Shown here piece after piece: positions 5,410-24,364 of a stretch of 25,915 nt of DNA (positions within the stretch are counted from its first letter, which is position 1; each line of letters opens with the position of its first letter). The stretch spans positions 1-25,915 of IMG/VR virus record IMGVR_UViG_3300044641_003672, one strand, 5' to 3'. Both the position numbers and the translations under genes were made by a program. Source of the stretch: a virus. The notes beneath the pieces were generated by a model. The model saw only the letters and a program-made list of their open reading frames with translations. It did not search any database and was not told where the DNA came from.

Positions 5410-5413
5410 TAGT

Positions 5414-6037: not shown

Positions 6038-6932
6038 ACTACTAGTAACAGGAGGAAAAGGATTAGTCGGTTCAGCAATTGATGCTGATATAAAATTAGG
6101 AAGGGAGTTTGACCTAACCAGCCCAGGAGAAACTCTAAAGGCTTTTAGGGGACATAAACCAACTCACGTTATTCATTGTGCAGGAAAGGTAGGAGGTCTT
6201 GGAGGAAATATGAAGTACAAAGGAGAGTACTTATATGATAACGTAATGATCAATACAAATGTAATTGAATCAGCTAGACTGGCTGGGGTTACAAATCTAG
6301 TATCATTCCTGTCTACCTGTGTATTTCCTGACAAGGTAAACTATCCTTTAACAGAAGATCAAATCCATAATGGCTTTCCTCATAACTCAAACTATCCATA
6401 TGCTTACGCAAAACGTCTAGCAGATATACAGATTAGAGCTTATAGGGAGCAGTATGGATTAAAGTATACTTCTGTAATTCCAACTAACATCTACGGTCCA
6501 AATGATAATTTCTCTTTAGAACATGGACATGTAGTGCCAATGCTTCTACATAAAATGTACTTGGCAATACAAAATAAAACAGACTTTAAAGTATGGGGTA
6601 CAGGTAAGCCTTTGAGAGAATTTATTTACTCTAAAGATGTAGCCGAATTATCTAAATGGGCTGTTGAGAATTATGATGAAGAAGAACCAATAATCTTCAC
6701 AACCTCAGAGGAAATAAGCATAAAGAACTTAGTAGGATTAATAGCTGAGGAATTTAACTATAAAGGAAATATTATTTTTGAATCAGATAAACCAGACGGA
6801 CAGTTTAGAAAGCCTTCCTCAAATGAGAAGCTAAAAAGATATCTTCCGAACTTTAAATACACTCCAATTGAGCAAGGAATAAAGGAAACAGTTAAATGGT
6901 TTATAGAAAATTACGACAATGCAAGAAAGTAA
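6024..6932 (+). CDS. fcl: GDP-L-fucose synthase (GDP-4-keto-6-deoxymannose 3,5-epimerase/4-reductase)
   Basis: This 302-residue SDR enzyme completes GDP-L-fucose synthesis from GDP-4-keto-6-deoxymannose using NADPH. A Rossmann TGGKGLVG loop lies at residues 9-16. The active-site set expected from the E. coli enzyme is present: Ser97 and Cys99 in STCVF, the Tyr126-x3-Lys130 pair in YPYAYAKR, and His169 in GHVVP. Other family blocks are NIYGPNDNF, WGTGKPLREF and DKPDGQFRK. Length is close to the usual 310-320. It overlaps the upstream GT2 gene by 14 bases and the downstream Gmd gene by 14 bases, so the two pathway enzymes are tightly coupled. A ColC-type epimerase for colitose is an alternative, but the sequence reads as a normal fucose synthase. 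Confidence 0.9.
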   Translation: MKHSKLLVTGGKGLVGSAIDADIKLGREFDLTSPGETLKAFRGHKPTHVIHCAGKVGGLGGNMKYKGEYLYDNVMINTNVIESARLAGVTNLVSFLSTCVFPDKVNYPLTEDQIHNGFPHNSNYPYAYAKRLADIQIRAYREQYGLKYTSVIPTNIYGPNDNFSLEHGHVVPMLLHKMYLAIQNKTDFKVWGTGKPLREFIYSKDVAELSKWAVENYDEEEPIIFTTSEEISIKNLVGLIAEEFNYKGNIIFESDKPDGQFRKPSSNEKLKRYLPNFKYTPIEQGIKETVKWFIENYDNARK

Positions 6933-7899
6933 AGTAGCACTTATAACAGGAATAAATGGACAAGACGGATCGTACCTAGCTGAGTTACTGTTAGAGAAAG
7001 GCTATGAAGTTTGGGGAACAGTAAAGAGAAATTCTGTTGCTGAGAACCAAACAGCAAGATTGGATAGTGTGTATGATAAAATTAAATTAGAGTACGCCGA
7101 TTTAACAGATCTAGCATCCCTACTAAGGGTAGTTGCAAAGGTACAGCCGGATGAACTATACAACCTAGCAGCACAGTCACATGTTAGGATATCTTTCGAT
7201 CAACCACTATATACAGCCAACGCAACAGGAATAGGTACACTAAATGTACTCGAAGCAGTAAGACTAATATCACCTAGTACAAGAGTATACCAGGCATCAT
7301 CTTCGGAAATGTTTGGAAACAGTATTGATGAGGATAGATTTCAAAGAGAAACTACACCACTCAATCCAGTATCACCTTACGGATGTGCTAAGGTATTTGC
7401 ATATAATATTAGTAGAAATTACCGTAACTCCTATAAGATGTACGTATCAAACGGTATATTATTCAATCATGAATCACCTCGTAGAGGTACAAACTTTGTT
7501 ACAAATAAAGTATGTAAGGAAGCTGTTAAGATTAAGTTAGGTTTATCAAATGAACTAAAGCTAGGAAACTTAGATGCTACAAGAGACTGGGGACATGCTA
7601 AGGATTATGTTTATGCAATGTGGTTAATACTTCAACAAGATAAACCAGATGACTTTGTTTGCTCAACAGGAATATCACACTCAGTGCAAGAGTTATGTGA
7701 GTATGTATTTGGTAAGCTAGAGCTAGATTGGAAGCAATATGTTAAGCAGGACGAGAAGTTCTTACGGCCAGAAGAGTTACATGACTTAAAGGGAGATTGT
7801 TCTAAGCTAATTAAAGCAACAGGCTGGAAGCATGAGTACACTTTTCAAAGTATGCTAGATGAGATGATTGAGTATTGGGAAAATTATTATAAAAAATAG
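6919..7899 (+). CDS. gmd: GDP-mannose 4,6-dehydratase
   Basis: This 326-residue SDR converts GDP-D-mannose to GDP-4-keto-6-deoxymannose, the substrate of the overlapping fcl product. The NADP-binding loop is TGINGQDGSYLAE (residues 10-22). Family blocks include YNLAAQSHV, the catalytic SSSEMFG (Glu130), Tyr154-x3-Lys158 in YGCAK, NHESPRRG and DWGHAKDYV. The catalytic Thr of the usual STSE motif is Ser128 here, a conservative change that should still work. Compared with bacterial Gmd (about 345-370 residues) it is slightly compact. The final Lys-Lys-stop codons run directly into the next promoter: TAG is followed by TTGC. Confidence 0.93.
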   Translation: MQESKVALITGINGQDGSYLAELLLEKGYEVWGTVKRNSVAENQTARLDSVYDKIKLEYADLTDLASLLRVVAKVQPDELYNLAAQSHVRISFDQPLYTANATGIGTLNVLEAVRLISPSTRVYQASSSEMFGNSIDEDRFQRETTPLNPVSPYGCAKVFAYNISRNYRNSYKMYVSNGILFNHESPRRGTNFVTNKVCKEAVKIKLGLSNELKLGNLDATRDWGHAKDYVYAMWLILQQDKPDDFVCSTGISHSVQELCEYVFGKLELDWKQYVKQDEKFLRPEELHDLKGDCSKLIKATGWKHEYTFQSMLDEMIEYWENYYKK

Positions 7900-7930
7900 T
7901 TGCATTCTATAGAAACATTCCCTATATTAG
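7900..7930 (+). promoter_or_regulatory. Promoter before the E1-like aminotransferase-fold gene
   Basis: TTGC at 7900-7903 is followed, 23 bases from its first T, by TATATTAG at 7923-7930. It begins at the base after the gmd stop codon, behind a run of six A. The next ATG (7963) leaves a leader of roughly 25-30 bases. It would start a second transcription unit inside the glycan cassette. Confidence 0.6.
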
Positions 7931-7962
7931 TAGAATAAATAAGTATAACATAAACTATAAAA

Positions 7963-9249
7963 ATGATTAAATTAGAAGACATTCAAACCTTAGTAGGTAA
8001 TCACGTATCACCTTACATTTACAATGCTAAAGCATTTAAACCAGGAGAGACACCCATATACTACTCAGGACCTTATTGGGACAATAAAGAAACAGAAGCT
8101 GCTATTAATGCATTTCTAAATGGAAGATGGATTACTACTGGAGAGAATGTTTTTAAGTTTGAAAGACTTTTCGGTAAGAGATTCAACTCCAAGTTCAACC
8201 TAATGGTCAACTCAGGATCATCAGCTAATCTAGTACTTATAGCAGCACTAAAGAGAAGATTCAACTGGGCGGATGATGACGAGGTAATTGTATCTCCTGT
8301 AGGATTTGCAACAACTGTATCGGTACTATATCAAAATAGATTGAAGCCAGTCTTTATTGATATTGAATGGGATACTCTAAACTTTGATTTAGATGAACTT
8401 GAAAGAAAGATCACTCCTCGTACTAAAGCAATATTCGTATCACCTGTACTAGGAAATCCACCAGACTTTGATAGATTGTTAGCAATTTGTGAAAAGTATG
8501 ATATAAAACTAGTAGGAGATAATTGTGATAGTTTAGGATCTAAATGGGATGGAAAGTACCTAAATGAGTATTACGTAGCATTTTCTAATTCATTCTACCC
8601 AGCACATCACATCTCAACAGGAGAAGGTGGAATGGTTTGCACCAATGATGAAGAGTTAAAAAAACTAATGATGAGTATTGCTTGGTGGGGTAGAGATTGC
8701 TACTGTGTAGGAGCAGCCAATCTAGCTTCATGTGGTACTTGTGGTAAGCGATTTGATAAATGGTTAGAGTCGTATGATGGAATTATTGACCATAAGTATG
8801 TTTTCTCTGAAATGGGATACAACTTGAAGCCATTAGACTTACAAGGTGCAATAGGAATAGAGCAAATAAAAAAGCTAGACGAGATTGAAGCTAATCGTAA
8901 AACTTCAAAAGAAACTTTAGAGAAGATATTCACAGATAATATTAAAGGCATTAGGGTACCTAAAACTTTAGATAAAGCAGATCCTTGTTGGTTTGGAACT
9001 CCATTCATATGTGAAGAGCCAGGCCTAAAGCATAGACTAGTTCAGTACTTAGAAGATAATAATATCCAGACAAGAAACTATTTTGCAGGAAACATTTTAC
9101 TACATCCAGGATACAGCTTCCTAGATAACGCAAAAGATTATCCAGAAGCAAATAAAGTATTAGATACTGTGTTCTTTATCGGAGCAGCACCTCACTATAC
9201 TCAACCAGTTTTTGATTACATAGAAGAAGTTATTAAAAAGTTTAAATGA
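7963..9249 (+). CDS. PLP-dependent sugar 3-dehydratase of the E1/RfbH type (DegT/DnrJ/EryC1/StrS fold)
   Basis: This 428-residue protein has the DegT fold, but the PLP-binding lysine is replaced by His215 in FYPAHHISTGEGG (residues 211-223). That is the hallmark of the 3-dehydratases RfbH/E1 and ColD. Asp186 (GDNCDSLGS) would bind the PLP ring nitrogen. Cys188 is separated by 57 residues from Cys246, with Cys248 (WGRDCYC) and Cys257/Cys260 (SCGTCGKRF) further on. This resembles the [2Fe-2S] ligand set of E1 (C-x57-C-x1-C-x7-C), with a few extra residues before the last cysteine. E1 removes the C3 hydroxyl of a 4-keto-6-deoxy sugar and needs an electron-donating reductase, which is not seen here. 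The Gmd product is a possible substrate. True aminotransferase activity is unlikely. Confidence 0.85.
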   Translation: MIKLEDIQTLVGNHVSPYIYNAKAFKPGETPIYYSGPYWDNKETEAAINAFLNGRWITTGENVFKFERLFGKRFNSKFNLMVNSGSSANLVLIAALKRRFNWADDDEVIVSPVGFATTVSVLYQNRLKPVFIDIEWDTLNFDLDELERKITPRTKAIFVSPVLGNPPDFDRLLAICEKYDIKLVGDNCDSLGSKWDGKYLNEYYVAFSNSFYPAHHISTGEGGMVCTNDEELKKLMMSIAWWGRDCYCVGAANLASCGTCGKRFDKWLESYDGIIDHKYVFSEMGYNLKPLDLQGAIGIEQIKKLDEIEANRKTSKETLEKIFTDNIKGIRVPKTLDKADPCWFGTPFICEEPGLKHRLVQYLEDNNIQTRNYFAGNILLHPGYSFLDNAKDYPEANKVLDTVFFIGAAPHYTQPVFDYIEEVIKKFK

Positions 9250-9968
9250 GAATAGTAGTATTAGGGGATGGACTATTAGGTTCTGAGCTAGTAAAACAAA
9301 CAGGCTGGGAGTATCTTTCAAGAAAGAAAGATGGTTTTGATATAACACAAGATGAAAAGTTTAATGATTATTTTATTGAGAATCATCACGGTGTTGTATT
9401 TACTACCAAGTATGATGTAGTGCTTAATTGCATAGCTTGCACAGATACGTATTCAGACAATAGGGATATACATTGGGATGTAAACTACAGAAGTGTGGTA
9501 AACCTTTCTAATTTTTGTACAAACAATAAAATAAAACTAGTTCATATCTCAACCGATTACGTATACACTAATTCAGAAAGTATGGCTAGTGAAGATGCTG
9601 TACCAGTTCATGGAGCTAATTGGTATAGTTATACAAAATTATTAGGAGATAGCTATGTACAACTGAACCCAGACCACCTAGTTCTTAGAGAGACTCATAA
9701 AGAAACTCCATTTAAGTATCCAGGAGCATGGATTAATCAAGTAGGTAATTTCGATTACATAGATACTATTGTAAAAATAGTAATAGACCTAACCAAGCAT
9801 AATGCAAAAGGACTTTACAACGTAGGTACTGAGTTAAAGAATATGTTAGAGTTGGCAAGCAGGACAAAGCCTGATGTATTACCAATACTTTCACAAGACA
9901 AAAGAGTACCGACAGACGTAAGTATGAATGTTACAAAGTTAAAAAATTTCTATGATAACATACAGTAA
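9246..9968 (+). CDS. Short RmlD-like NAD(P)-dependent sugar reductase (SDR)
   Basis: This 240-residue SDR resembles dTDP-4-dehydrorhamnose reductase. The glycine loop is LGDGLLGSEL (residues 6-15). STDYVY (Ser102, Thr103) and the Tyr127-x3-Lys131 catalytic pair in YSYTK are present. Known RmlD proteins are nearer 290-300 residues, so the substrate-binding C-terminal part is reduced. It overlaps the E1-like gene by 4 bases, so it may reduce the 4-keto group of that enzyme's product. No RmlA, RmlB or RmlC is present, which argues against dTDP-rhamnose itself. Confidence 0.75.
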   Translation: MRIVVLGDGLLGSELVKQTGWEYLSRKKDGFDITQDEKFNDYFIENHHGVVFTTKYDVVLNCIACTDTYSDNRDIHWDVNYRSVVNLSNFCTNNKIKLVHISTDYVYTNSESMASEDAVPVHGANWYSYTKLLGDSYVQLNPDHLVLRETHKETPFKYPGAWINQVGNFDYIDTIVKIVIDLTKHNAKGLYNVGTELKNMLELASRTKPDVLPILSQDKRVPTDVSMNVTKLKNFYDNIQ

Positions 9969-10782
9969 GATAGGGCACTTTGGAAGACTTGGTAATCAAC
10001 TCTTTCAATTTGCATCTACATATGGAATAGCTAAGAAGCAAGGATATGGAGTAGCTTTTCCTTTAGAAAATATAGAACAGCCATCTATAGAAGATTTTAA
10101 AGATGGAATTACTAGAAAAATTACCTTTGATATTCCTAAAGCATTTATACTAGAAGAAGGATTAGTACTTCCAGGAAAGGATATACAAGCCGCATACACA
10201 GTTCAAGAACCTTCCTTTCACTTCTCAGAAGAATTATTTACAATTCCTGATGATTGTGATATGAACGGATACTATCAAAGTGAAAAATACTTTAAGCATG
10301 TAGAGGAGGAACTAAGAAAGGTTCTAACTTTTAAAGAAGAAATCTACAAAAAAGCTTCTGAGATTTATTCTCAAATAAAATACAGTACAGTAAGTATTCA
10401 CATAAGACGAGGAGATTACTTAGGACTAGAGCAATTTCATCCAGTATGTTCACCAGAGTATTATCAAGAAGCATTATCAAATTTTACAGATGACAGTTAT
10501 CAATTCTTAATATTCTCTGACGATATGCCATATTGTCAAGATTTATTTGGAGATCAAGAAAATATTTCGTATATTAGTACTAATGATGCATTTGTTGACT
10601 TATGCTTAATGTCCCTATGTGATCACAATATAATAGCAAATAGCTCATTTAGCTGGTGGGGTGCTTGGTTAAATACCAATCAAGACAAGAGAGTAATAGC
10701 TCCAAAGAAATGGTTCGGAACAGCTTACAACAATGTACATAACACAAAAGACTTATACTGCGATAAATGGATACAACTATAA
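9952..10782 (+). CDS. GT11-family fucosyltransferase (alpha-1,2-type)
   Basis: This 276-residue protein carries the family 11 motifs: GRLGNQLFQFA at residues 11-21, the GDP-fucose-binding HIRRGDY at 150-156 and SSFSWWGAWL at 231-240. GT11 enzymes transfer L-fucose from GDP-fucose, usually in alpha-1,2 linkage to galactose. Length is normal for bacterial members (about 270-300). Its presence 2 kb downstream of fcl and gmd means that donor synthesis and use are encoded together. It overlaps the RmlD-like gene by 17 bases and the following GT2 fusion by 16 bases. No signal or membrane segment is visible, so it should act in the cytoplasm. Confidence 0.9.
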   Translation: MITYSKIGHFGRLGNQLFQFASTYGIAKKQGYGVAFPLENIEQPSIEDFKDGITRKITFDIPKAFILEEGLVLPGKDIQAAYTVQEPSFHFSEELFTIPDDCDMNGYYQSEKYFKHVEEELRKVLTFKEEIYKKASEIYSQIKYSTVSIHIRRGDYLGLEQFHPVCSPEYYQEALSNFTDDSYQFLIFSDDMPYCQDLFGDQENISYISTNDAFVDLCLMSLCDHNIIANSSFSWWGAWLNTNQDKRVIAPKKWFGTAYNNVHNTKDLYCDKWIQL

Positions 10783-12809
10783 AACCTTTCTTTAGTATTG
10801 CAATACCTTGCTGGGGGATAAAAGGTAAAGGAGTAGAGTATTTAGAATACTCTTTCAACATACTAGCTCAACAAACATTTACAGACTTTAACATAATTAT
10901 CTCAGATCATAGTATAGATAATGATATAAAGAATCTATGTGAAGATTGGTCAACCTTGCTAAATATTAAGTATATTAAGAACGATATAGGTAGAGGTAAT
11001 ATAGCACCTAACCTAAATGTTGCAATTAATCACTCAGACGGAAAGTATATTAAAATACTTTTTCAAGATGACTTTCTATATGACGTAGACTCTCTTGAAA
11101 ACATCCACACAGCTATACAGAAAGACTTAGAAAAAAGTTGGCTTATTACAGCATGTACACATACTAGGGATTGTATAAATTTATATGATACAATGATACC
11201 TTTCTATCACGATAGAATACATGAAGGTATTAATACAATAAGTTGTCCAACAGTTTTAACTATTAAGAATAACAATCCACTACTGTTTGATGAATCACTT
11301 AATTGGCTAGTAGACGTAGAATATTATAAACGACTATTCAATACATACGGAGATCCAATAGTAGTGAGTGAAGTTTGTGCAGTAAACAGAGATGCAGAGA
11401 TTAGAACCACAAACCTTATATCGGAAGCTCAGAAGCAAGAAGAGACTGTAAGGGTAACCAAAATGTACAGTCAAGTGCTAGATCTGTCTAGAGTGACACT
11501 TATAGCCGTTACATCTGTTAGGTTAGAGGATCATGTAAAGGCATTGGAGTATAGTGCAAGAAATATTGAATTTGGTGCTATTAAGATTGTGTCTGATGTT
11601 GAGCCTGAGAACTTACCGTCCTATATTACGTATGAGCACATAGATAAGATCTCCAACATAGATGAGTGGAACTATGCAATGATCTACAAACTAGGGCAGT
11701 ACATTGACACAGAGTTTGCAATGATAGTTCACGATGATGGATTTATAATAAACCCTCAATCATGGAGACCAGAATTCTTCAACTACGACTACATAGGAGC
11801 ACCATGGCCTCTACCTTATGACAATTATTCATACAGAGATACTAACGGAGAGTTAATAAGAGTTGGAAATAGTGTATCCCTAAGAAGTAAGAAGCTGATA
11901 GATCTTCCAAATGTATTGAACATGGAATGGAAGTCATTCCACGGACTGTATAGTGAAGATGGGTTTATATGTGTAAACAATAGGCACATCTACAAAGAGC
12001 ATGGATGTAAGTTTGCAGATATTGATGTAGCTAAATATTTTTCTCACGAAACACCTCTACCAGAGACTGCAGGTATCACACCATTTGCCTTTCATGGTAG
12101 GAATAGTTTACCTTACAAAAAGATAATGGTAGATAAGTCTCCTACAAAAGAGTTAGTAATAGCAGCATACGACAAGGACCTTTCTTGGACAGGAGGAGTG
12201 AACAGCGACGTAAGAAGAACAGTGTACAGAAAAGGCTCACAAGCTATAGACTCTTCTGAAATAGTAATAGAGCAAAATGTAGGTAGATGTGTACATTCCT
12301 TCTTCAATCACATCTACACCAGGTACGATAGTTTATCAGATTATACTTTCTTTGCACAAGACTATCCTTTTGATCATTGGGGTAACCTACTTGAAATATT
12401 AAATGGACCTGTAGAGGATTATAGAAATAAAGCATCCTTGGTAATTGATGGGTACTATGGGTACCATAACAATACATTAGGCACAGCCTGGCAATTGCAA
12501 CAAACAGCACAATTTACATACGGGGGAACCCTATGGTGTTTGAGCAACGGACATCCTCATGATACAAATCCGGACATAAACGTAGATAAGTATTGGGAGT
12601 TGTTGTTCGAAGAACCCACACCTTCTGTATATGAATTTATGCCAGGTGGACATTTTATAATAACAAAACAACAAATACTTGCACGACCAAGAGAATTCTA
12701 CAAAAAGATAGTAGATTTGCTTTTGCAAGAAGAAGTAGCTCCATGGTTGGTGGAACGACTAGAATGTTATATCTTTGATAATAAGTATAAAATAAAACAA
12801 ATAAACTAA
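10767..12809 (+). CDS. Three-domain protein: GT2 + DUF5672 + DUF3431-like
   Basis: This 680-residue protein is a fusion. Residues 1 to about 230 form a GT2 domain, with opening FFSIAIPCWG and a QDD metal motif at 100-102. Residues about 240-450 match DUF5672, a family linked to glycan synthesis, with HDDGF at 322-326, GAPWP at 344-348 and VGNSVSLRSKKL at 367-378. Residues about 460-675 resemble DUF3431: DLSWTGG, then NVGRCVHSFFNHI at 504-516, a FFAQDYPFDHWGN segment, and ARPREFY near 639-645. All three families are associated with sugar transfer, so this may add several sugars processively. It is soluble by sequence. Its acceptor is unknown. The DUF3431 call is the least certain of the three. 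Confidence 0.75.
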   Translation: MDTTIKPFFSIAIPCWGIKGKGVEYLEYSFNILAQQTFTDFNIIISDHSIDNDIKNLCEDWSTLLNIKYIKNDIGRGNIAPNLNVAINHSDGKYIKILFQDDFLYDVDSLENIHTAIQKDLEKSWLITACTHTRDCINLYDTMIPFYHDRIHEGINTISCPTVLTIKNNNPLLFDESLNWLVDVEYYKRLFNTYGDPIVVSEVCAVNRDAEIRTTNLISEAQKQEETVRVTKMYSQVLDLSRVTLIAVTSVRLEDHVKALEYSARNIEFGAIKIVSDVEPENLPSYITYEHIDKISNIDEWNYAMIYKLGQYIDTEFAMIVHDDGFIINPQSWRPEFFNYDYIGAPWPLPYDNYSYRDTNGELIRVGNSVSLRSKKLIDLPNVLNMEWKSFHGLYSEDGFICVNNRHIYKEHGCKFADIDVAKYFSHETPLPETAGITPFAFHGRNSLPYKKIMVDKSPTKELVIAAYDKDLSWTGGVNSDVRRTVYRKGSQAIDSSEIVIEQNVGRCVHSFFNHIYTRYDSLSDYTFFAQDYPFDHWGNLLEILNGPVEDYRNKASLVIDGYYGYHNNTLGTAWQLQQTAQFTYGGTLWCLSNGHPHDTNPDINVDKYWELLFEEPTPSVYEFMPGGHFIITKQQILARPREFYKKIVDLLLQEEVAPWLVERLECYIFDNKYKIKQIN

Positions 12810-12810
12810 T

Positions 12811-13623
12811 ATGAATAATAAAAAAAAGATAGCATTAGTAACAATGGCTAAGGATGAGGATCTATATTTACAGGAGTGGATAGATTACCATTTGAAATTA
12901 GGATTCGATGATATATTTATCTACCAAAATAACTGGACATTCAACAACCAGAAACCAGACGACCGTGTGCACTTTTTAGAATGGAACATAGACACGCCAA
13001 ACCCATTCTCTGAGACCCCTTGGCTCTCAAACAGAATCGCCATGTGCTACAATCAGTTTGGGCAAACCCACTACGATGAGTTTGAGTGGGCAGCTTTCTT
13101 CGATGTAGATGGATTTCTAGTACTGAAACAAACGAATGACGTTAAGGAGTTTATTGCCGATTTTGACGATGTTCCTCAAAAGCAGGTTATAATAAATCTA
13201 GCACACTTTGGAGACAACGGTCATACAGAATTTGATCCAAACAATGCAAGTCTACTAGAAAGATTTACCAAAAGGTGGGGAGAGCCCTACACCCACACAT
13301 ACTACCAAGTTGCACCAATCTGCAAACTACACAAAGATTTCGATGGACACAGTGTTCACATGCTACATGGTCCAGATTGGATTGACGTAGATGGAGTAGT
13401 GGGTAACGGACCAGGAACTATCCATAATTGTACAAGAAATGTATCCTACGATAAAGCACAAATTAACCACTACTATACAAAAACTTGGCCTGAGTGGCAG
13501 ACGAAGTGTAGTAAATCTCGACCTGAGGCAGATAGTTTAAGAACTTCCGTTGATTTATTTGACTCTCACAACCATAATGATGTAGAGGATCTACACGCTT
13601 TAAATTTCTTTAAAAGTAATTAA
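12811..13623 (+). CDS. Glycosyltransferase, GT92/Glyco_tranf_2_4-like
   Basis: This 270-residue protein begins with the signature KIALVTMAKDEDLYLQEWID (about residues 6-25) and a HLKLGFDDIFIYQNN stretch. This is the nucleotide-binding start of the Glyco_tranf_2_4/GT92 group. The metal motif is DVDGF at residues 98-102, inside FFDVDGFLVL. A HSVHMLHGPDW segment and a NHYYTKTWPEW segment in the second half are typical of the group. In GT92 proteins the sugar is often galactose, with fucose a known acceptor in animals; that specificity should not be assumed here. It starts 1 base after the stop of the fusion gene. Confidence 0.8.
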   Translation: MNNKKKIALVTMAKDEDLYLQEWIDYHLKLGFDDIFIYQNNWTFNNQKPDDRVHFLEWNIDTPNPFSETPWLSNRIAMCYNQFGQTHYDEFEWAAFFDVDGFLVLKQTNDVKEFIADFDDVPQKQVIINLAHFGDNGHTEFDPNNASLLERFTKRWGEPYTHTYYQVAPICKLHKDFDGHSVHMLHGPDWIDVDGVVGNGPGTIHNCTRNVSYDKAQINHYYTKTWPEWQTKCSKSRPEADSLRTSVDLFDSHNHNDVEDLHALNFFKSN

Positions 13624-13635
13624 AATTTTAGAATT

Positions 13636-14373
13636 ATGAATATTGTAAATACAGATTTAGACATACAAAAAATTAATAATCCATATGATGTATGGGTTAT
13701 TGATAATTTTCTAAAGGAAGATATACTTGAGAATATTATACAAACATGGCCATCCTACGAAAATGAAAACTGGTACACAGGACATGCTATGGTAGGTGGT
13801 AAAAAAAATATACTGGAACAAGGAATGAAAGGCATCAGTAAGGTTGAAAACATGCCTCAGTATATAAAAGAAGTAGTCCAGTATTTACACTCAGAGGACT
13901 TCACCGATAAGATAGGAAAACTCCTAGAAGTACCAGGATTAGTTCCAGATAAGGCAATGAGGTGGTCAGGTATGAGAAGTATGCCGTCTGGCTCTTATCA
14001 ACTAATTCATAGTGATGCAAGGAAGTCTCCTGAAACAGGTTTAAGAAAAGAAATAACTTGTTTACTGTATTTGAATAAGGGTTACGACAAACGAACTAAC
14101 GAAGGTTGTTTAGAAATTTGGAATGATGATATGACTATTCGCACTCACGAAATAGAGCCTACTTGTAATAGGTTGGTGGCATTCCTAAATAGTGATACTT
14201 CCTACCACGGAGTTCCGCTTGTAAAAGCTGATAGAAAGTTTATTACATTCTCTATTCTAAAACAAGGTAGTACTGCTGAGCGATCTAAAGCATTGTTTGT
14301 TGCAAGACCTACAGATTCTTCGGAAGTTAGAGTAGAGGGTATTAAGAGATCTCAAGTAGGAGATATTGGTTAA
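13636..14373 (+). CDS. 2-oxoglutarate/Fe(II)-dependent dioxygenase, prolyl-hydroxylase-like
   Basis: This 245-residue protein has the facial triad of the family: His125 and Asp127 in LIHSDARKS, and the distal His191 in SYHGV. Arg200 in DRKFITFS would hold 2-oxoglutarate. CLLYLNKGY and GCLEIWND (about 142-164) fit the double-stranded beta-helix of 2OG-FeII_Oxy_3 (prolyl 4-hydroxylase superfamily). Such enzymes hydroxylate proline, asparagine, sugars or bases using O2. It stands between glycosyltransferase and amino-sugar genes, which suggests it modifies the glycan or creates the hydroxyl used for attachment. It does not carry TET/JBP-type hallmarks that I can see, so base oxidation is less favoured. 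The C-terminal 35 residues look like a flexible tail. Confidence 0.85.
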   Translation: MNIVNTDLDIQKINNPYDVWVIDNFLKEDILENIIQTWPSYENENWYTGHAMVGGKKNILEQGMKGISKVENMPQYIKEVVQYLHSEDFTDKIGKLLEVPGLVPDKAMRWSGMRSMPSGSYQLIHSDARKSPETGLRKEITCLLYLNKGYDKRTNEGCLEIWNDDMTIRTHEIEPTCNRLVAFLNSDTSYHGVPLVKADRKFITFSILKQGSTAERSKALFVARPTDSSEVRVEGIKRSQVGDIG

Positions 14374-14396
14374 CTAATTAAAGAGATATAAAAAAT

Positions 14397-15542
14397 ATGG
14401 AAACAAAAAATTATCCAATATTTAAAGTACATGTTGACGTAGACAAGGCTTTAGAAAATTTAAAAACTGTGTTATCAAGTGGTTTTTTGAATGAAGGTGA
14501 ATACGTAACTCAGTTTACAGACTTTTTAAATAGTTACCTAAACCACACGAACGTAGTTTTACTAAACAGCTGCACTTCTGCACTCACACTAGCTCTAAAA
14601 CTATCAGGTGTCTCTCCAGGAGATGAGGTTATAGCAACATCCATGACTTGTGTTGCTAGTAATACTCCAATATCTAATTTAGGAGCTAAAGTAGTTTGGT
14701 GTGACATTGATCGTGAAACTGGAAATATAGATCCACTAAAAGTGGAATCTTTGATTACCAAAAAGACTAAAGCCATCCTATGTGTTAATTGGGCAGGACT
14801 CCCATGTGAATTAGAGGCATTGCAGTCAATATGCAAAACCCACAACATTAAACTTATACAAGATGCAGCACACTCTTTCGGTGCAAAGTTTAATGGAGAG
14901 CAAGTATGTCACCATGCTGACTACACCTGCTACAGCTTCCAAGCTATCAAGCATATAACTACTGGCGATGGCGGTGCTTTGGTTTGTAAATCTAATGATG
15001 ATTTTGAAAGAGCTAAAAAATTAAAATGGTTTGGTATTGATAGAGAAGCTACTAAGGATGAGAAAGGTGAGTGGAAAGGTCAAAGATGGGAAGTAAATAT
15101 ACCTGAAGCAGGATACAAATTCCACATGAATAACATATCAGCTGCCATTGGATTATCACAAATCCCACATATCGACACAGTGCTGCAGTCCCATATCGAT
15201 AATGCAGAATTGTATAGCACTTTGCTAAAAGACAACTTACATGTGAAACCTTTAAAATTTTTAAAAAATACACAACCAACCTATTGGGTGTATACAGTCT
15301 TGCTGGATAAGAGTCTCGATCGTAATGAAATCCTAGAAAAGCTAAATAAGCAGAATATTGCTGCTGGACTAGTGCATATACCTTGCCATGGGTACGAATG
15401 CTTTACAGAAAGCCAATCAGAGCTACCAGACACGGACTACTTCTACAACCATCAGATATCACTTCCTTGTGGATGGTGGCTTAGCAAAGAAGATATAACC
15501 TTCATAAGTGATACACTAGTTAAAGTTATAGACAATGAATAG
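14397..15542 (+). CDS. PLP-dependent sugar aminotransferase (DegT/DnrJ/EryC1/StrS)
   Basis: This 381-residue protein is a lysine-type member of the family. Lys185 in SFQAIKHITTGDGG would form the PLP aldimine, Asp156 in QDAAHSFGA would contact the pyridine nitrogen, and LNSCTSALTLAL (residues 56-67) is the phosphate-binding region. It therefore transfers an amino group from glutamate to a 4-keto or 3-keto NDP-sugar, unlike the His-type relative upstream. It overlaps the hexapeptide acyltransferase gene by 8 bases, and a CapD-like dehydratase lies beyond that. The trio matches the dehydratase-aminotransferase-acetyltransferase logic of bacillosamine-type or Fuc4NAc/Qui4NAc sugars. The exact stereochemistry cannot be read from sequence. 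Confidence 0.88.
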   Translation: METKNYPIFKVHVDVDKALENLKTVLSSGFLNEGEYVTQFTDFLNSYLNHTNVVLLNSCTSALTLALKLSGVSPGDEVIATSMTCVASNTPISNLGAKVVWCDIDRETGNIDPLKVESLITKKTKAILCVNWAGLPCELEALQSICKTHNIKLIQDAAHSFGAKFNGEQVCHHADYTCYSFQAIKHITTGDGGALVCKSNDDFERAKKLKWFGIDREATKDEKGEWKGQRWEVNIPEAGYKFHMNNISAAIGLSQIPHIDTVLQSHIDNAELYSTLLKDNLHVKPLKFLKNTQPTYWVYTVLLDKSLDRNEILEKLNKQNIAAGLVHIPCHGYECFTESQSELPDTDYFYNHQISLPCGWWLSKEDITFISDTLVKVIDNE

Positions 15543-16404
15543 CATTGACAGTACCTCTTTTATAGATCCGTTCATTAAATTAGGGAACTATAACCAGATA
15601 GGTAAAAATGTACAAATTAAATACCTTGACGAAAAAAATAAACCAACTGTTACAATCGGAGACAATAATATTATAAATGACAATACTAGAATCCTAATAG
15701 GTGCAGATCCACTACACATAGGAGACTGGAATGTTTTCCATAATGATATGCTAATTATGGTTGGTAAGGGAATTGGTATAGGAGACAATTGTTGGTTTGG
15801 ACAAAATACTATTTTAGATGGTGCTGGAGAACTTTCAATAGGTAATGGTGTTAGAGTTGGAATGTACTCTCAAATATGGACACATGTTGCTAGTGGTGAA
15901 CTGATAGAGGGATGTATGCTGTTTGGAGACAGTAAAGTAGTTATTGAGGATGACGTTTGGCTAGTTGGCAGCTGTGTAGTCTCTTCAGGAGTTCACCTAA
16001 GAAGAAAATCAGTCTTCCTAATAAACTCAGTAATAACAAAAGACTCTGAGCCTGAAACAATATACTCAGGTACACCAGCAATTGTTAACAGTAAAATACA
16101 AGTTTGGAAAGAAGTATCTGTTGTTGAAAAATTAAAAATGTTACTTGAATGGGGAGAACTTTTTTGCCACAACAAGCAATATGAAATTGATAGTGAAATA
16201 GACTTAGGATACTTCACTATGAAGTCTACCAAAGATAGAGAAGCACTGGTATTTTTTATTGAAGAAGGGTTCAAAGTACCTGACCAGTTTGTTACTAGCT
16301 TATTCAATGTAGTAGATAAGACATTTACGAAAAAGAATAGTCTTTTAGAGAGAACTTTTTACAAATTTATATACAATCATAAGGCTAGATTTCGTATATT
16401 GTAA
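15535..16404 (+). CDS. Left-handed beta-helix (hexapeptide repeat) acyltransferase
   Basis: This 289-residue protein has many imperfect hexapeptide turns ([LIV]-G-x-x-x-x) between about residues 20 and 185, for example VTIGDN, LHIGDW, IGIGDN, LSIGNG and VWLVGS. IWTHVASGEL at 114-123 supplies the likely catalytic His117. Such trimers transfer acetyl or other acyl groups from CoA to an amino or hydroxyl group. The direct overlap with the aminotransferase gene suggests it N-acylates the amino sugar made there. The C-terminal 100 residues lie beyond the helix and are unassigned. It is longer than typical sugar O-acetyltransferases (about 185-220) and lacks PglD's N-terminal sugar-binding domain as far as can be seen. 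Confidence 0.82.
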   Translation: MNSIDSTSFIDPFIKLGNYNQIGKNVQIKYLDEKNKPTVTIGDNNIINDNTRILIGADPLHIGDWNVFHNDMLIMVGKGIGIGDNCWFGQNTILDGAGELSIGNGVRVGMYSQIWTHVASGELIEGCMLFGDSKVVIEDDVWLVGSCVVSSGVHLRRKSVFLINSVITKDSEPETIYSGTPAIVNSKIQVWKEVSVVEKLKMLLEWGELFCHNKQYEIDSEIDLGYFTMKSTKDREALVFFIEEGFKVPDQFVTSLFNVVDKTFTKKNSLLERTFYKFIYNHKARFRIL

Positions 16405-16420
16405 TAATAATACAAAGACC

Positions 16421-17380
16421 ATGGAAAATAAAAAAATCCTTATAATAGGAGGAACAGGAGCTCTAGGCAAAACCTTAATTAAACTTTATCAAGATGCAAA
16501 TCAAATTAAAGTATTGAGCAGAGATGAACACAAACAAGTTAATCTAGTTTACTCAGACTGGGTGAATAACGAAAAGGTTAGTTTTATGATTGGTGACGTG
16601 AAAGATAAGAACTGTATTATAAACGCCATAGAAGATTTTAGACCGGATATTGTAATCAATGCAGCTGCACTAAAGCATGTTCCTGTGTGTGAAATAAATC
16701 CTTACGAATCAGTTAACGTAAATATAATAGGACACCAGAATCTATTAGAAGCTGTAAGACGAAGCAATCATAGAATAGAAACTTTAATTTACATATCATC
16801 CGACAAAGCATGTAAACCAGTAAATATATATGGAATGTGTAAGGCAATATCTGAAAGATTGTATATAGAGTTTGCAAAAAAGCAAACAGATGTAAAAGTC
16901 TGCTTAGTTCGATACGGTAATGTGTTAGAGTCTACAGGATCAGTTATTCCGTACTTTAAACAACTACTGAAAGGAGGATGTAAGGAACTTCCAATCACAG
17001 ATGTACGCATGACACGGTTTCTACTAACACTAGAGTCAGCAGCTAAGTTAATAGAGTGGGCATACTATAGTCCCATATCACACGGTAAGATAGTTGTACC
17101 TAAAATACAGTCTTTTAAAATAGCAGACATTGCAAAAACTTTAATATCAGAATATAATCCGAACTCGGATATTAAATTAAAAGTTGTAGGAATACGAAAA
17201 GGAGAGAAGTTACATGAAGAAATGATTTCTTCTGAGGAATGGATGCGTACTGAAGATCATGAAAATTACTTAATCACAGACGAGATACTAACAAACGAAA
17301 GCATTTCATACAACTCAGCCAACTGCGTAATGCCTGAAGAGGATGTTAATGGCTTTTTGAAGCTTTGTAATGTAATTTAA
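16421..17380 (+). CDS. NDP-sugar 4,6-dehydratase, CapD/PseB-like (probable UDP-GlcNAc 4,6-dehydratase)
   Basis: This 319-residue SDR has the NADP loop GGTGALG at residues 10-16, NAAALKHVPVCE (80-91), SSDKA (126-130, with Asp128 and Lys129) and the Tyr137-x3-Lys141 pair in YGMCK. ALKHVP and SSDKA, together with GEKLHEEMIS near the C-terminus, are signatures of the polysaccharide biosynthesis family that includes FlaA1/PseB and the soluble domain of CapD/PglF. These enzymes dehydrate UDP-GlcNAc to a 4-keto-6-deoxy sugar. The usual YGATK is YGMCK here. No membrane-spanning N-terminus is present, unlike PglF/CapD. The product would feed the aminotransferase encoded 0.9 kb upstream. Confidence 0.85.
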   Translation: MENKKILIIGGTGALGKTLIKLYQDANQIKVLSRDEHKQVNLVYSDWVNNEKVSFMIGDVKDKNCIINAIEDFRPDIVINAAALKHVPVCEINPYESVNVNIIGHQNLLEAVRRSNHRIETLIYISSDKACKPVNIYGMCKAISERLYIEFAKKQTDVKVCLVRYGNVLESTGSVIPYFKQLLKGGCKELPITDVRMTRFLLTLESAAKLIEWAYYSPISHGKIVVPKIQSFKIADIAKTLISEYNPNSDIKLKVVGIRKGEKLHEEMISSEEWMRTEDHENYLITDEILTNESISYNSANCVMPEEDVNGFLKLCNVI

Positions 17381-17394
17381 GATAGAAATATAAA

Positions 17395-18294
17395 ATGATA
17401 ACAACAGAATTTTATCATGGACAAGGGTTAGGTAACCAGCTAGCAGTCTACGTAACTACTAGAGCTATTGCTCTACGAAACGGATATGAATTTGGATATA
17501 CTGGCCTAGAAAATTTTGGGGATAGAAGGTATAATGACAAAGGAGTATACTTTATGGACTTGGATTTAGGTAAGGAAGTATGTAATTCAACCATTACAAA
17601 TCACTACAAAGAGAAAGAAACTAGAATTAAACTCCAGCACAGTCATCATGATGCAACAATTGGATGTGATGTAAGGCTTATAGATCAAGACTTGTTAAAT
17701 GTTGCAGACAATACTAAGATAGATGGTATAATGCAGGGAGAAGATTACTTCTACCAATACAAGGAAGAGATTAAGAGTTGGTTAAAATTAAAATCAGAGT
17801 ATGATGAACGTAGATTTACCTCAGACAATATCTGCGTACTAAACATAAGAGACTACGAAGGGGATACTACTCTGTTCTTAGGAAGAGAATACTGGGTAAA
17901 AGCAATCAACCACATGCTTAGTATTAATCCAAAGATGGAGTTTATAATCATCACAGAAGCTCCAGACATGGCTAAAAGACTTCTTCCGGAACTAGCACAC
18001 AATGTACACCACTTTGATGTAGGAAGAGATTATGCAGCTGTTAAAAATGCTAGATGGTTAATCCTTTCTAATTCAAGCTTTGCATACTTTCCTGCACTCA
18101 CCAACGAAGAAGCTAAACTAATTATAGCACCAAAGTATTGGGCAAGACATAATGTTTCGGATGGGTACTGGGCATGTGGTTATAACTTGTCTAGAGATTT
18201 TATGTATATGAATAAAGAAGGTAACTTGCAGACCTATGATGAATGTTTAAGAGAATTTGAAATTTATAAAATAGAATCAAACATATATGGCTAA
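17395..18294 (+). CDS. Divergent GT11-like (fucosyltransferase-fold) protein
   Basis: This 299-residue protein keeps the first GT11 signature (GQGLGNQLAVYV, residues 9-20) and a version of the last (LSNSSFAYFPA, 224-234, followed by KLIIAPKYW). The central GDP-fucose motif HxRRGDY is altered to NIRDYEG (150-156), keeping only Arg152. It may use a different donor, or use GDP-fucose differently. Residues 60-110 contain several His/Asp residues of unknown role. It is soluble by sequence. It lies between the amino-sugar dehydratase and GT17 genes, overlapping the latter by 8 bases. Confidence 0.65.
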   Translation: MITTEFYHGQGLGNQLAVYVTTRAIALRNGYEFGYTGLENFGDRRYNDKGVYFMDLDLGKEVCNSTITNHYKEKETRIKLQHSHHDATIGCDVRLIDQDLLNVADNTKIDGIMQGEDYFYQYKEEIKSWLKLKSEYDERRFTSDNICVLNIRDYEGDTTLFLGREYWVKAINHMLSINPKMEFIIITEAPDMAKRLLPELAHNVHHFDVGRDYAAVKNARWLILSNSSFAYFPALTNEEAKLIIAPKYWARHNVSDGYWACGYNLSRDFMYMNKEGNLQTYDECLREFEIYKIESNIYG

Positions 18295-19144
18295 AATTTA
18301 TGATGTATTTACTTTCTTTAATGAGATAGACTTACTAAAATTGAGATTAGAAATGCTAGGTCCTTATGTGGATAAGTTTGTAATAGTGGAATGTGTTGAG
18401 ACATTTAGCGGAAAGCCTAAGCCTCTATACTTTGAAGAGAATAAACATTTATTCAAAGACTATGAGGATAAAATTATTCATCATGTTACTTACGATCCTC
18501 CAACATCGTTTGAGGATTTAAGAAATAGAATACTAGATCCAAATGTAGATGAATTAACAAAGCAGATATGTATACAGGCTCTTACCTCTACAAATGTACC
18601 TCCCGGTGAAGTACATTGGCTTAAAGAATTCTATCAGAAAGAAAATATCCGTAGAGCATTGGTTGGACTAGAGGATGACGATATATGTTTTGTTGGAGAC
18701 TTAGATGAGTATTGGGATACAGATTTAGACTACTCAGTTATTGATCACGAAAGTATTTACAAGCTCAGACAGATAGTATATGTAGGATATTTTAATAACA
18801 GATCCTCAGAAGAATGGGCAGGTACAATGCTGACTAGGTATAAGAATATTAAAAACTCTTGCTTAAATCACCTAAGAACAAAGTCAAAGACTGAATATGT
18901 CTATGTATCAGATGCTGGATGGCATTTATCTTTTATGGGAGGTGTTGATCAGATCAAGTATAAGATTGACTCGTATGGACATCAGGAGTATAACAACGAT
19001 AGCGTAACACAGCAGATAGAAAGTAATCTAGAGGGAGGAAGAGATGTCTTAGGTAGAAGCGATTTTACCTTCTGGACTGATGAAGAAGGACTTCCTGCAT
19101 ACATAAAAGAGAATAGAGATAAGTATTTACAATTTTTTAAATAA
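18287..19144 (+). CDS. GT17-family glycosyltransferase
   Basis: This 285-residue protein opens with the family 17 signature: IYDVFTFFNEIDLLKLRLEM at residues 4-23, then VDKFVIVECVETFSGKPKPL. The metal-binding DLDE is at 138-141 in FVGDLDEYWD. The family's founding members are eukaryotic beta-1,4-N-acetylglucosaminyltransferases (MGAT3); bacterial and viral homologues are known but their linkages mostly are not. A WHLSFMGG segment lies near residues 207-214. It overlaps the preceding gene by 8 bases and shares one base with the start of the next, so it is translationally coupled. Confidence 0.85.
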   Translation: MAKIYDVFTFFNEIDLLKLRLEMLGPYVDKFVIVECVETFSGKPKPLYFEENKHLFKDYEDKIIHHVTYDPPTSFEDLRNRILDPNVDELTKQICIQALTSTNVPPGEVHWLKEFYQKENIRRALVGLEDDDICFVGDLDEYWDTDLDYSVIDHESIYKLRQIVYVGYFNNRSSEEWAGTMLTRYKNIKNSCLNHLRTKSKTEYVYVSDAGWHLSFMGGVDQIKYKIDSYGHQEYNNDSVTQQIESNLEGGRDVLGRSDFTFWTDEEGLPAYIKENRDKYLQFFK

Positions 19145-19821
19145 TGGTAATAGGTCAAGGGCTACTTGCAAAAGCTTTTAGTAGTTACAAAGATATCGAA
19201 GGAGTACTGATATTTGCCTCAGGAGTATCTAACTCCAAAGAGAACGATCTTACTATGTTTGAAAGAGAACATACAATGCTTACCTCTTATGCTAATACAG
19301 ACTTAAAATTAATATACTTCAGTACAATAAGTGTAGTAGATGAATCGTTAAAAGATTCTCTATATGTTCAACATAAAATATCTATGGAAAAGTACATTGT
19401 AGAGAACTTTAAAAACTACATAGTATTCAGACTTCCTAATGTTATAGGACATACTGCAAATAAGCATACATTTTTCAATAGCATAAAAGAGAGTATACTT
19501 ACCAAACAACGAGTAAAAGTACTAAGTAATGCTACTAGGTACCTTATAGATGTAGACGACCTAGCAGAATATCTTCCTCAGTTAATTGAAAAGGAAAATA
19601 AGAAGGTAATAAATGTATGTTTTAGTAATAAAACATCTGTAAAAGAGTTAGTTAGCATAATAGGAACAGCCTTACAAACTACATACATAGAGGAAGTAGT
19701 ACAGGGAGGAAGTGGTTACGAAATAGATAACAGTACATTCCTTTCATACATTACTCCAAATGCTGTTGGATTACAGCAAAATTATAACTATATTATAGTA
19801 AACAAATACATAAACGCATAG
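19144..19821 (+). CDS. Short NAD(P)-dependent epimerase/dehydratase-like SDR
   Basis: This 225-residue protein is a reduced SDR. The glycine loop is MVIGQGLLAKA (G-x-G-x-x-A, residues 4-9). YFSTISV (Ser60, Thr61) marks the catalytic strand, and YVQHK (Tyr74, Lys78) supplies the Tyr-x3-Lys pair. FRLPNVIG and a DVDDLAEYL segment are typical of epimerases. At 225 residues it is well below the normal 290-330, with a much-shortened region between the cofactor loop and the catalytic Ser. It probably acts on an NDP-sugar, but the substrate cannot be named. Confidence 0.7.
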   Translation: MVIGQGLLAKAFSSYKDIEGVLIFASGVSNSKENDLTMFEREHTMLTSYANTDLKLIYFSTISVVDESLKDSLYVQHKISMEKYIVENFKNYIVFRLPNVIGHTANKHTFFNSIKESILTKQRVKVLSNATRYLIDVDDLAEYLPQLIEKENKKVINVCFSNKTSVKELVSIIGTALQTTYIEEVVQGGSGYEIDNSTFLSYITPNAVGLQQNYNYIIVNKYINA

Positions 19822-19823
19822 CT

Positions 19824-20984
19824 ATGATTACATTTTGTATACCAAGTAAAAACAATCTAAGATACTTGAAAGCCTGCATACCTTCTATTCAACAAAACTC
19901 TTACTATAAAACAAATAAAATACTTATATATGTAGATGAAGATACAGATGGAACCGAAGATTGGTTAAAAGAAAATAACATTTCATATATTAAAAATACA
20001 GATGGAGTATGTAAAGGAATAGGAAATGCGTATGATATACTAATCAAAGAGTCTACCACAGATATGGTACTAGTATTCCATACAGATATGTTATTAGGAC
20101 ATCATGCAGACTACTACCTACTTGAAGCCTATAAACCTAAATCGGTTGTATGTGCAACTAGAATTGAACCACCACTACACCCTCCAGGTCCAGAGAAAAT
20201 TGTGAAAGACTTTGGAATATGGCCTGAGGATATAAAATGGGAAGAGTTTAATTCATTTGTAAAAGATCAAATACCTTTAAATGAAGGTAAGTATTCAAAA
20301 GCTCTCTTTGCTCCTTGGCTTATTAATCGTAATGATCATTTAGGTCATGATGATATTTTTAAATCTATTTATGAAGATGCAGATATCTTTAGAAGATTTG
20401 TATTAGCCGAGTATGAGATCATACAAGTGTGGAGTAGCTTAGTATATCACCTTACTTGTAGAAGTAGTAAGTTCGAAGATGTAGGAAATAATACAGACTT
20501 TACAACTCAAGGCACAGAAGAATGGCAAAGAAAGAATTATGCAATGGCATTGGAGTATATTAGGAAGTGGGGAGGTATGTTTAGAGAATATGGTCCTTGT
20601 GAACCAAGACCTAATGTTAAATACGATGTAGGATTGGAAATAAAGAATTGCGATATCTCCTTATTAGGGTACGAGCCATATACTACTAGTATGCAAGTTG
20701 ATTGTACTACGTTAACATATATCGAACAAGCACAGAAACAATCTAGCTTTAATATAGGTAGTAAGTTTGTTCAAGCATTAAAGAATGATATTAGAATAAC
20801 TTTCGATAAGAGTAGTGGAGCAATAGATGATTTGCATTATGTGTTAACAAACATCGAAGACATTTTAGAGCAAACTGACTCAGATAGTACTTATGAATTC
20901 GGTACAGTAACAATCACTACTAACAAAAAAGAAGTACATAATCCTAAAGTAAATATCAATGAAGGTATCTCTAATAATTCCTAG
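19824..20984 (+). CDS. GT2-family glycosyltransferase, first of a tandem paralogous pair
   Basis: This 386-residue GT-A enzyme has an ITFCIPSKNNLRYLK opening (residues 2-16) and an HTDM metal motif at 86-89. It shares long blocks with the next gene: CATRIEPPLHP at 110-120, FAPWL near 162-166, EDADIFRRF at 184-192 and YHLTCR at 208-213. After about residue 250 a C-terminal domain of about 130 residues begins with VGLEIKNCD; it has no recognised identity but is also kept in the paralogue. Its last 26 bases overlap the next start. The pair probably arose by duplication and now adds different or successive sugars. Confidence 0.82.
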   Translation: MITFCIPSKNNLRYLKACIPSIQQNSYYKTNKILIYVDEDTDGTEDWLKENNISYIKNTDGVCKGIGNAYDILIKESTTDMVLVFHTDMLLGHHADYYLLEAYKPKSVVCATRIEPPLHPPGPEKIVKDFGIWPEDIKWEEFNSFVKDQIPLNEGKYSKALFAPWLINRNDHLGHDDIFKSIYEDADIFRRFVLAEYEIIQVWSSLVYHLTCRSSKFEDVGNNTDFTTQGTEEWQRKNYAMALEYIRKWGGMFREYGPCEPRPNVKYDVGLEIKNCDISLLGYEPYTTSMQVDCTTLTYIEQAQKQSSFNIGSKFVQALKNDIRITFDKSSGAIDDLHYVLTNIEDILEQTDSDSTYEFGTVTITTNKKEVHNPKVNINEGISNNS

Positions 20985-22116
20985 TTACAACAACCTACAG
21001 CATTTAAAGAATGTATATACATCAGTACAGAAGCATGAACCTCAAGCAGAAGTAATTCTTTTAGACGATGGATCAACAGACGGCACTTGGGAATGGATAC
21101 AACAACAAGACTGTATCAAGTTTAGAAGTGAAGAGAGAATAGGACACACAATTCTCTATGATAAAGGAATTGAATTAGCTACAAATGATATTGTAGGAAT
21201 ACTTCATGCAGATATGATACTAGGTCCAAACTATATCAAAAATTTAACTAAGCATCTTAAACCTCAGACAGTTGTGTGTGCAACTAGAATTGAACCACCT
21301 CTTCATCCAGAAGGAAAAGAGAAGATCATTAGAGATTTTGGAATGGACTTTGATACTTTAGATGTAGATTCATTCGAAGAGTTTGTTAGGGACTTACAAG
21401 CAGTTGAAGGAGAGACTACAAAAGGAATGTTTGCACCTTGGATACTTTATAAAGAAGACTTTCAAGCAATAGGAGGACATGATCCTTTATTTGCTCCATT
21501 TCCATACGAAGACTCAGATATCTTTCAGAGATGGATAATGGCTGGCTATGAATTGGTACAGTCAAGAGATGCTTTTGTATACCACTTAACCTGTAGAGGT
21601 CATAGATGGAATGAACAAATAGGACAAGACGATAATTATTACAAGATTGTATCTGCAAGAGCAGCTAGAAATTATTTACGTAAGTGGGGAAGTTGGATTA
21701 AAAATGATGAATTTCAGTATCCAATAATCAATCCAAAGTATAATATTGCTTTTGTGGTTAAAAATTGTAACTCTGAGATGTTAGAAGTATTAGAACCTTG
21801 GTGCGACAGGATATATATTGATGATGAAATGCAAGTACTAACATCACATTACATAGACAAAGAGCAGCCGAATACTAAATTTGATCTGTCAAAAAGAATT
21901 TATACAATAGGACATAATGATCCAATACTAGAGAATGATATAATATTAGAGTTTGATGCAATACAATTCACACAACAATCATTCAACGTTATACAACAAC
22001 TACCAGAGATTGTAAAAGAGAGTGGAGAGGTAGGTCAATTCGAATTAGATATATTTAAAATAACAATCAATTCAATAGAGGAATATCAGAACGATCTAAT
22101 AGTATGTAAAAATTAA
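20959..22116 (+). CDS. GT2-family glycosyltransferase, second of a tandem paralogous pair
   Basis: This 385-residue enzyme parallels its upstream neighbour. It has a canonical GT2 start (VSLIIPSYNN, residues 3-12), the LLDDGSTDGT nucleotide-binding strand (34-43) and HADM as the DxD-like motif (83-86). The blocks CATRIEPPLHP (107-117), EDSDIFQRW (184-192) and YHLTCR (208-213) match the neighbour. The N-terminal motifs are better preserved here, so this copy may be closer to the ancestral activity. The C-terminal domain begins near AFVVKNCN. It is the last recognisable gene of the glycan cassette; a 19-base gap then leads to unrelated phage genes. Confidence 0.85.
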   Translation: MKVSLIIPSYNNLQHLKNVYTSVQKHEPQAEVILLDDGSTDGTWEWIQQQDCIKFRSEERIGHTILYDKGIELATNDIVGILHADMILGPNYIKNLTKHLKPQTVVCATRIEPPLHPEGKEKIIRDFGMDFDTLDVDSFEEFVRDLQAVEGETTKGMFAPWILYKEDFQAIGGHDPLFAPFPYEDSDIFQRWIMAGYELVQSRDAFVYHLTCRGHRWNEQIGQDDNYYKIVSARAARNYLRKWGSWIKNDEFQYPIINPKYNIAFVVKNCNSEMLEVLEPWCDRIYIDDEMQVLTSHYIDKEQPNTKFDLSKRIYTIGHNDPILENDIILEFDAIQFTQQSFNVIQQLPEIVKESGEVGQFELDIFKITINSIEEYQNDLIVCKN

Positions 22117-22135
22117 CTATTTATAATAAAAACAT

Positions 22136-22492: not shown

Positions 22493-22502
22493 ATAAACTA
22501 AT

Positions 22503-22715: not shown

Positions 22716-22737
22716 TATTAGTATAAGGGAAAAGGAT

Positions 22738-23067: not shown

Positions 23068-23074
23068 AAAAAAG

Positions 23075-23105: not shown

Positions 23106-23130
23106 TACTATAATTAAAAATAAAACGGTT

Positions 23131-24347: not shown

Positions 24348-24364
24348 GGTATACAAAAAAGGTT

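Follow-up and report, generated by a model that had tools for sequence, protein, structure and literature searches.

Which substrate would a phage supply to a 2OG-Fe(II) oxygenase that is encoded among glycosyltransferases? The window, that is, the whole 25,915-base viral fragment analysed here, is related to Flavobacterium phage vB_FspM_immuto (hereafter immuto) and raises this question, since its oxygenase gene stands, as the preliminary description had it, among several genes of GT2/GT4 type, one GT11, one GT17 and one GT92-like gene (Table 1). The product matches PF13640 (2OG-FeII_Oxy_3) over residues 118-204, scoring 47 bits where the cut-off is 27 (E 5.4e-12, Pfam). The complete set of His125, Asp127, His191 and Arg200 was found at the positions noted previously, and it is invariant in all of 56 non-redundant homologues, as are D105, G112, G157, F183 and G192. 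Furthermore, dN/dS values of about 0.07 (L094/L095; L numbers denote the other records compared) and 0.24 (L105/L107) show that purifying selection acts on the gene in relatives. The HxD...H iron triad, the basic 2OG residue and the double-stranded beta-helix by which members of the 2OG-Fe(II) oxygenase superfamily are recognised are all present. The reading frame is an intact 2OG-Fe(II) oxygenase gene under selection, with predicted catalytic activity.

Table 1. Features of the window discussed in the text, with coordinates
Feature	Coordinates	Strand	Remarks
NDP-deoxysugar genes: Fcl-like (6024), GMD-like (6919), RfbH-like PLP enzyme (7963), RmlD-like (9246)	6024-9968	+	
GT11 family glycosyltransferase	9952-10782	+	Pfam GT11 match; the "fucosyltransferase" of the preliminary description
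Fusion of GT2 domain, DUF5672 and DUF3431	10767-12809	+	680 aa
Glycosyltransferase (PF13704, weak GT92)	12811-13623	+	Immediately upstream of the oxygenase; upstream also in L098-L100
2OG-Fe(II) oxygenase	13636-14373	+	245 aa, ATG start; PF13640; H125, D127, H191, R200
DegT/DnrJ aminotransferase	14397-15542	+	23 bp past the oxygenase; PLP lysine present (SFQAIKH); best NCBIfam model PseC, below cut-off
Hexapeptide (left-handed beta-helix) acyltransferase	15535-16404	+	Hexapeptide type also in L098-L100; formyltransferase instead in L094, L095, L101-L103, L105, L107
NDP-sugar 4,6-dehydratase (PF02719)	16421-17380	+	Best NCBIfam model PseB, below cut-off
Rest of variable island: 17395, GT17-like (18287), RmlD-like (19144), GT2 (19824)	17395-20984	+	ORF at 17395 without significant Pfam match
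Variable glycan island	6032-21158		DNA homology to immuto ends at 6031 and restarts at 21159

The oxygenase lies in a part of the genome that is replaced as a block. Most of the flanking genes are 66-91% identical to those of immuto, a phage of 160 kb that was isolated on Flavobacterium sp. LMO8, with lower values (56-59%) for the genes at the island edges. At the same site immuto has, in place of the island of about 15 kb, an unrelated block of about 6 kb that carries sugar genes of its own, and no PF13640 gene was found anywhere in its genome. Likewise, the 159.6-kb record L002 has the flanks in common with the window and again a different island, in which the oxygenase (68% identity) is the only clear counterpart, beside a dehydratase of 35% identity and a few weaker matches. 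As differing blocks lie between shared flanks in the window, immuto and L002, they represent a glycan island whose content is exchangeable but whose site is fixed. Viewed along the window, the immuto-like backbone covers 1042-6037 and 20959-25913, and the block of about 15 kb between them was exchanged. Since immuto is an isolate and a close relative without the oxygenase gene, the chemistry of both kinds of island could be compared.

The first genes of the island concern deoxysugars. The RfbH-like enzyme (7963-9249) has His at the position of the PLP lysine (SFYPAHH, as against SFQAIKH in the DegT aminotransferase) and a Cys cluster (CYC...CGTCG). The change of the PLP lysine to His in RfbH and ColD accompanies 3-deoxygenation. 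Judged from these residues, the enzyme is probably not an aminotransferase but a 3-dehydrase, and therefore a 3,6-dideoxyhexose may be the product. Thus, with an RfbH-like enzyme beside the GMD- and Fcl-like genes, the deoxysugar genes of the window do not simply point to fucose. As a separate observation, the GT2 part of the 680-aa fusion is matched by a 235-aa protein that in L003 is a separate gene immediately upstream of the oxygenase.

The genes downstream of the oxygenase form a dehydratase-aminotransferase-acyltransferase module, for which PseB and PseC were the best NCBIfam models. However, neither equivalog cut-off was reached in the window (269.6 versus 407.75 bits for PseB and 273.5 versus 423.5 bits for PseC), and membership in the pseudaminic-acid pathway was thus not established by these models. 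Because of these scores, we name the sugar no further than a 4-amino-4,6-dideoxyhexose derivative.

The link of the oxygenase with this module was followed through IMG/VR scans, which gave a close subfamily of 14 loci, mostly on metagenomic fragments, in 11 lineages, a rough grouping in which oxygenases more than 90% identical were counted once. The DegT aminotransferase abuts the oxygenase in eight of the 11 lineages, with gaps of -11 to +23 bp, and the window DegT is 61-81% identical to the oxygenase-adjoining DegT of relatives. Nine lineages have the PF02719 dehydratase in the locus (the L102 record ends before the expected dehydratase), and eight have an N-acyltransferase. The gene order varies: oxygenase-DegT-acyltransferase-dehydratase in the window, L098, L101, L103, L105 and L107; dehydratase-formyltransferase-DegT-oxygenase in L094/L095; and dehydratase-oxygenase in L002/L106. 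The link between oxygenase and module persists through this rearrangement. Pairwise identities of oxygenase and DegT also covary (rho 0.90 over 36 pairs, which are not independent of one another). L104, with an oxygenase of 49% identity, has no module in its locus. In the reverse direction, seven further lineages with the same DegT subfamily have the module without a close oxygenase, and thus the oxygenase appears to be an optional addition to the sugar module; in one of these cases (L149 and its copies) an oxygenase of the wider family lies four genes upstream. The repeated genetic link with sugar-nucleotide enzymes that is expected of an enzyme tailoring a sugar or nucleotide sugar was therefore found, and it is optional when viewed from the module.

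Some further genes of these loci may be mentioned. A PseF-like cytidylyltransferase is present in L107 and related loci. Inside the amino-sugar module of L105 (10578-12083) and L107 (from 10548) there is a 501-aa protein with metallo-beta-lactamase-like, SCP2-like and C-terminal Rieske parts, possibly a second oxygenase of the module. In L101 (4837-6474), a cytidylyltransferase fused to an HMGL-like (aldolase/synthase) domain is encoded upstream of the oxygenase.

Based on this linkage, we consider it probable that the oxygenase is an Fe(II)/2OG enzyme that tailors the 4-amino-4,6-dideoxy sugar of the neighbouring genes, as an optional addition to their pathway. The PF02719 dehydratase would produce a 4-keto-6-deoxy sugar, which the DegT enzyme would aminate to an NDP-4-amino-4,6-dideoxyhexose, and the acyltransferase would cap the amine. 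Finally, or at an intermediate stage, the oxygenase, with Fe(II), 2OG and O2, would hydroxylate or oxidise a carbon of the sugar, either as the nucleotide-sugar or after its placement in a glycan. The glycosyltransferases of the island may then build a surface glycan with the modified sugar on the virion or on the host surface. We infer the first three steps from the enzyme families and the oxidation from linkage and fold; the sugar as substrate, the carbon attacked and the final place of the glycan are likewise part of the proposal. Because the product of the formyltransferase would be without an acyl methyl, a shared target would more likely be a ring carbon or C6 than the acyl group.

A different logic had been put forward previously, in which, as in the Skp1 system, a prolyl hydroxylase makes the site on which a fucose-containing glycan is built. 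Its parts list of hydroxylase, glycosyltransferases and fucosyltransferase held for the hydroxylase-type oxygenase and the glycosyltransferases, but the "fucosyltransferase" is a Pfam GT11 family match only. Outside the window, GT11, the fucosyltransferase family that was searched, was found in one of 11 other tested records, which were carriers of the close subfamily, with immuto, a backbone without the oxygenase, searched alongside; in a wider set it was found in one of 21 records. Linkage of the hydroxylase to a fucosyltransferase thus did not appear across the records tested by the GT11 search. As GT11 is seldom present, the Skp1/fucose logic was rejected as the main reading; the constant partners are sugar-nucleotide enzymes, and the pocket Trp discussed below is absent.

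More generally, the oxygenase could be a peptidyl hydroxylase, so that proline or another residue of a virion or host protein is hydroxylated and the hydroxyl is then glycosylated by the glycosyltransferases of the island, as for Skp1 or mimivirus L230. The earlier idea of hydroxylation and glycosylation does have a viral precedent, since the mimivirus hydroxylase-glucosyltransferase L230 exists, although it acts on lysine, in a collagen-like protein (PMC4691112). Furthermore, the oxygenase was kept in the window and L002 despite the turnover of other island genes, which would fit a constant protein acceptor. However, the constant partners of the oxygenase include no particular glycosyltransferase, GT11 being missing from 10 of the 11 other tested records. 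Collagen-like repeats were found neither in G001, the record (159.6 kb) of the closest relative, nor in immuto, which argues against a collagen-type substrate there; as such repeats occur in some other records, this search was uninformative overall.

The closest solved relatives of the oxygenase include OGFOD1, Tpa1 and PHD2, which favours the peptidyl hydroxylase, and the fold therefore needs to be considered. The AlphaFold model is confident (pLDDT 89, pTM 0.89) and shows the fold expected of the family; its PDB matches reach Z of about 20. A Foldseek search with this model placed PolD first (E 1.7e-10), followed by Tpa1, PHD2 and OGFOD1. The VIA-align Z scores were 21.5 for OGFOD1, 20.6 for Tpa1, 19.6 for PolD, 19.5 for PasI and about 18 for PHD2, and the best PDB match of the profile was OGFOD1 (E 1e-16). 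Thus, similarity to the peptidyl prolyl hydroxylases (PHD/OGFOD1/P4H) is present (Z 17-21.5), but it is not specific, because PolD and PasI score about as high; as far as the model can tell, peptide and nucleoside-sugar enzymes are about equally near in fold. The comparison with P4H and with sugar or base hydroxylases, which had been suggested in the preliminary description, therefore upheld a prolyl-hydroxylase-like fold (OGFOD1, Tpa1, PHD2), with PolD and PasI about equally close. A structural match to a nucleotide hydroxylase, there regarded as fatal to the peptide reading, was obtained with PolD first and PasI close, yet the prolyl hydroxylases score as well. As the fold search did not separate peptide from nucleoside-sugar enzymes, structure was set aside as an arbiter of the substrate.

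One position of the pocket does differ. In OGFOD1, Trp236, six residues past the 2OG-site Arg230, lines the active-site groove (PMC4396695). The residue at this Arg+6 position is Trp in PHD2 as well as OGFOD1, Glu in PolD and, for the majority of the wider family, Tyr, whereas it is Ser or Ala in all loci (14 of 14) that make up the close subfamily; the pocket Trp, with PHD2 and OGFOD1 as the reference, is thus absent from all 14. With few sequences compared, this loss is a hint, not proof, that points away from the prolyl hydroxylases. Taken with the gene neighbourhood, it leads us to consider a peptidyl hydroxylase unlikely, though worth keeping in view.

For tailoring of the amino sugar speak its repeated co-occurrence and adjacency with the module across viruses, the first rank of PolD in Foldseek and the Ser or Ala in place of the pocket Trp; against it speak the top VIA-align scores, which belong to peptidyl prolyl hydroxylases, the occurrence of the module without the oxygenase, and L104, where the oxygenase is without the module.

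The wider family gives a less specific picture. Of 109 ORFs at positions +-1 of the 56 homologues, Pfam assigned 18 to GT2, about nine to sugar SDRs and about seven to methyltransferases, whereas at +-9 the 56 ORFs included one GT2 and two SDRs. Because the homologues were collected through their similarity to the window gene or to sugar-island genes, the counts at +-1 are in part a product of ascertainment and are supportive only. A Streptomyces phage has a run of oxygenase, glycosyltransferase, methyltransferase and glycosyltransferase. Matches to the wider family (E <= 1e-15) were found in 23 of 793 bacterial genomes drawn from two phyla, where the neighbours are mixed (methyltransferases, glycosyltransferases, acyltransferases and hydrolases) and not decisive. 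In the marine virus AG-345-E08 (L004, 296-8708), several oxygenase-like genes stand in a row with glycosyltransferase-like genes and a gene for an RCC1-repeat protein.

These data bear on the possibility that the oxygenase tailors another small molecule attached to the glycan, such as an amino acid, a lipid or an acyl donor, and not the amino sugar itself. PF13640-type enzymes act on varied substrates, and some wider relatives adjoin methyltransferases; in one bacterial homologue, from Acidimicrobiaceae (L083, 9902-11566), the C-terminal extension looks by eye like a TylF-like methyltransferase. In addition, a report on cyanophage clusters reads their 2OGFeDO genes as serving capsular polysaccharide decoration or secondary metabolism (PMC7824862). 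However, no acyl-carrier, amino-acid-activating or lipid gene is conspicuous among the genes that members of the close subfamily have in common, and we regard such a substrate as quite unlikely.

Hydroxylation of a base or sugar of nucleic acid, as in an AlkB- or TET-like DNA modification, might be suggested by PHROG 274, which carries the label "DNA endonuclease V" and matches the window oxygenase and 45 of 62 members of its family. The label is at odds with the fold and the catalytic residues: the protein has the 2OG oxygenase fold and catalytic set and not an endonuclease fold, so that identity with DNA endonuclease V was rejected and the label looks wrong. PF13640 was the sole Pfam match, with no AlkB or TET family, and most close relatives have sugar-gene neighbours. 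The DNA-modifying reading was therefore rejected on Pfam family and fold, and we hold it to be very improbable.

Returning to the amino sugar, we propose, tentatively and with more doubt than for the tailoring role as such, that a prolyl-hydroxylase-like subfamily of phage enzymes might hydroxylate an NDP-4-amino-4,6-dideoxyhexose, or the glycan made from it, so that an oxidised amino sugar would arise by a route that bacteria are not known to have, and that the subfamily is an optional addition carried on exchangeable islands. If true, phages would have a new means of diversifying amino sugars, and enzymes that are usually named "prolyl hydroxylase" would need to be annotated by their context.

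Among known systems, the PseB-PseC-PseH type of pathway is similar in that a dehydratase, an aminotransferase and an N-acyltransferase stand in one block; it differs in that the window scores below the equivalog cut-offs. To our knowledge, the classical form of this pathway has no 2OG oxygenase. In the open literature on phage 2OG oxygenases with prolyl hydroxylation or a nucleotide-sugar module, only general reports were found. 2OG oxygenases with an EGLN-like fold are common in marine phages (PMC12774648). The marine-phage and cyanophage enzymes resemble that of the window in being phage-borne, of EGLN-like fold and among glycosyltransferases, whereas the accessible parts of both reports do not describe the window subfamily or its link with a dehydratase, an aminotransferase and an acyltransferase (PMC12774648, PMC7824862). 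Thus, phage polysaccharide clusters with oxygenases have been published before, and the specific combination of oxygenase and amino-sugar module is undescribed in the open literature as far as we searched. The ribosomal prolyl 3-hydroxylases OGFOD1 and Tpa1 and also PHD2 (EGLN1) have the same fold and HxD...H...R set, and Tyr145 of the window enzyme aligns with a Tyr of the PHD2 YYLN motif; however, identity is 15-21%, Trp236 of OGFOD1 is replaced by Ser or Ala, and the setting in the window is sugar-nucleotide synthesis. PolD (polyoxin) and PasI (Photorhabdus) also share the fold, PolD having Glu and not Trp at Arg+6. They differ in their identity to the window enzyme (14-19%), in their role in antibiotic synthesis, and in an octosyl-acid chemistry without known counterpart in the window island. 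In polyoxin synthesis, PolD and PolK provide the nucleoside moiety (PMC12614342), and in the proposed polyoxin pathway a PLP aminotransferase, PolI, follows PolD and PolK (PMC5365060).
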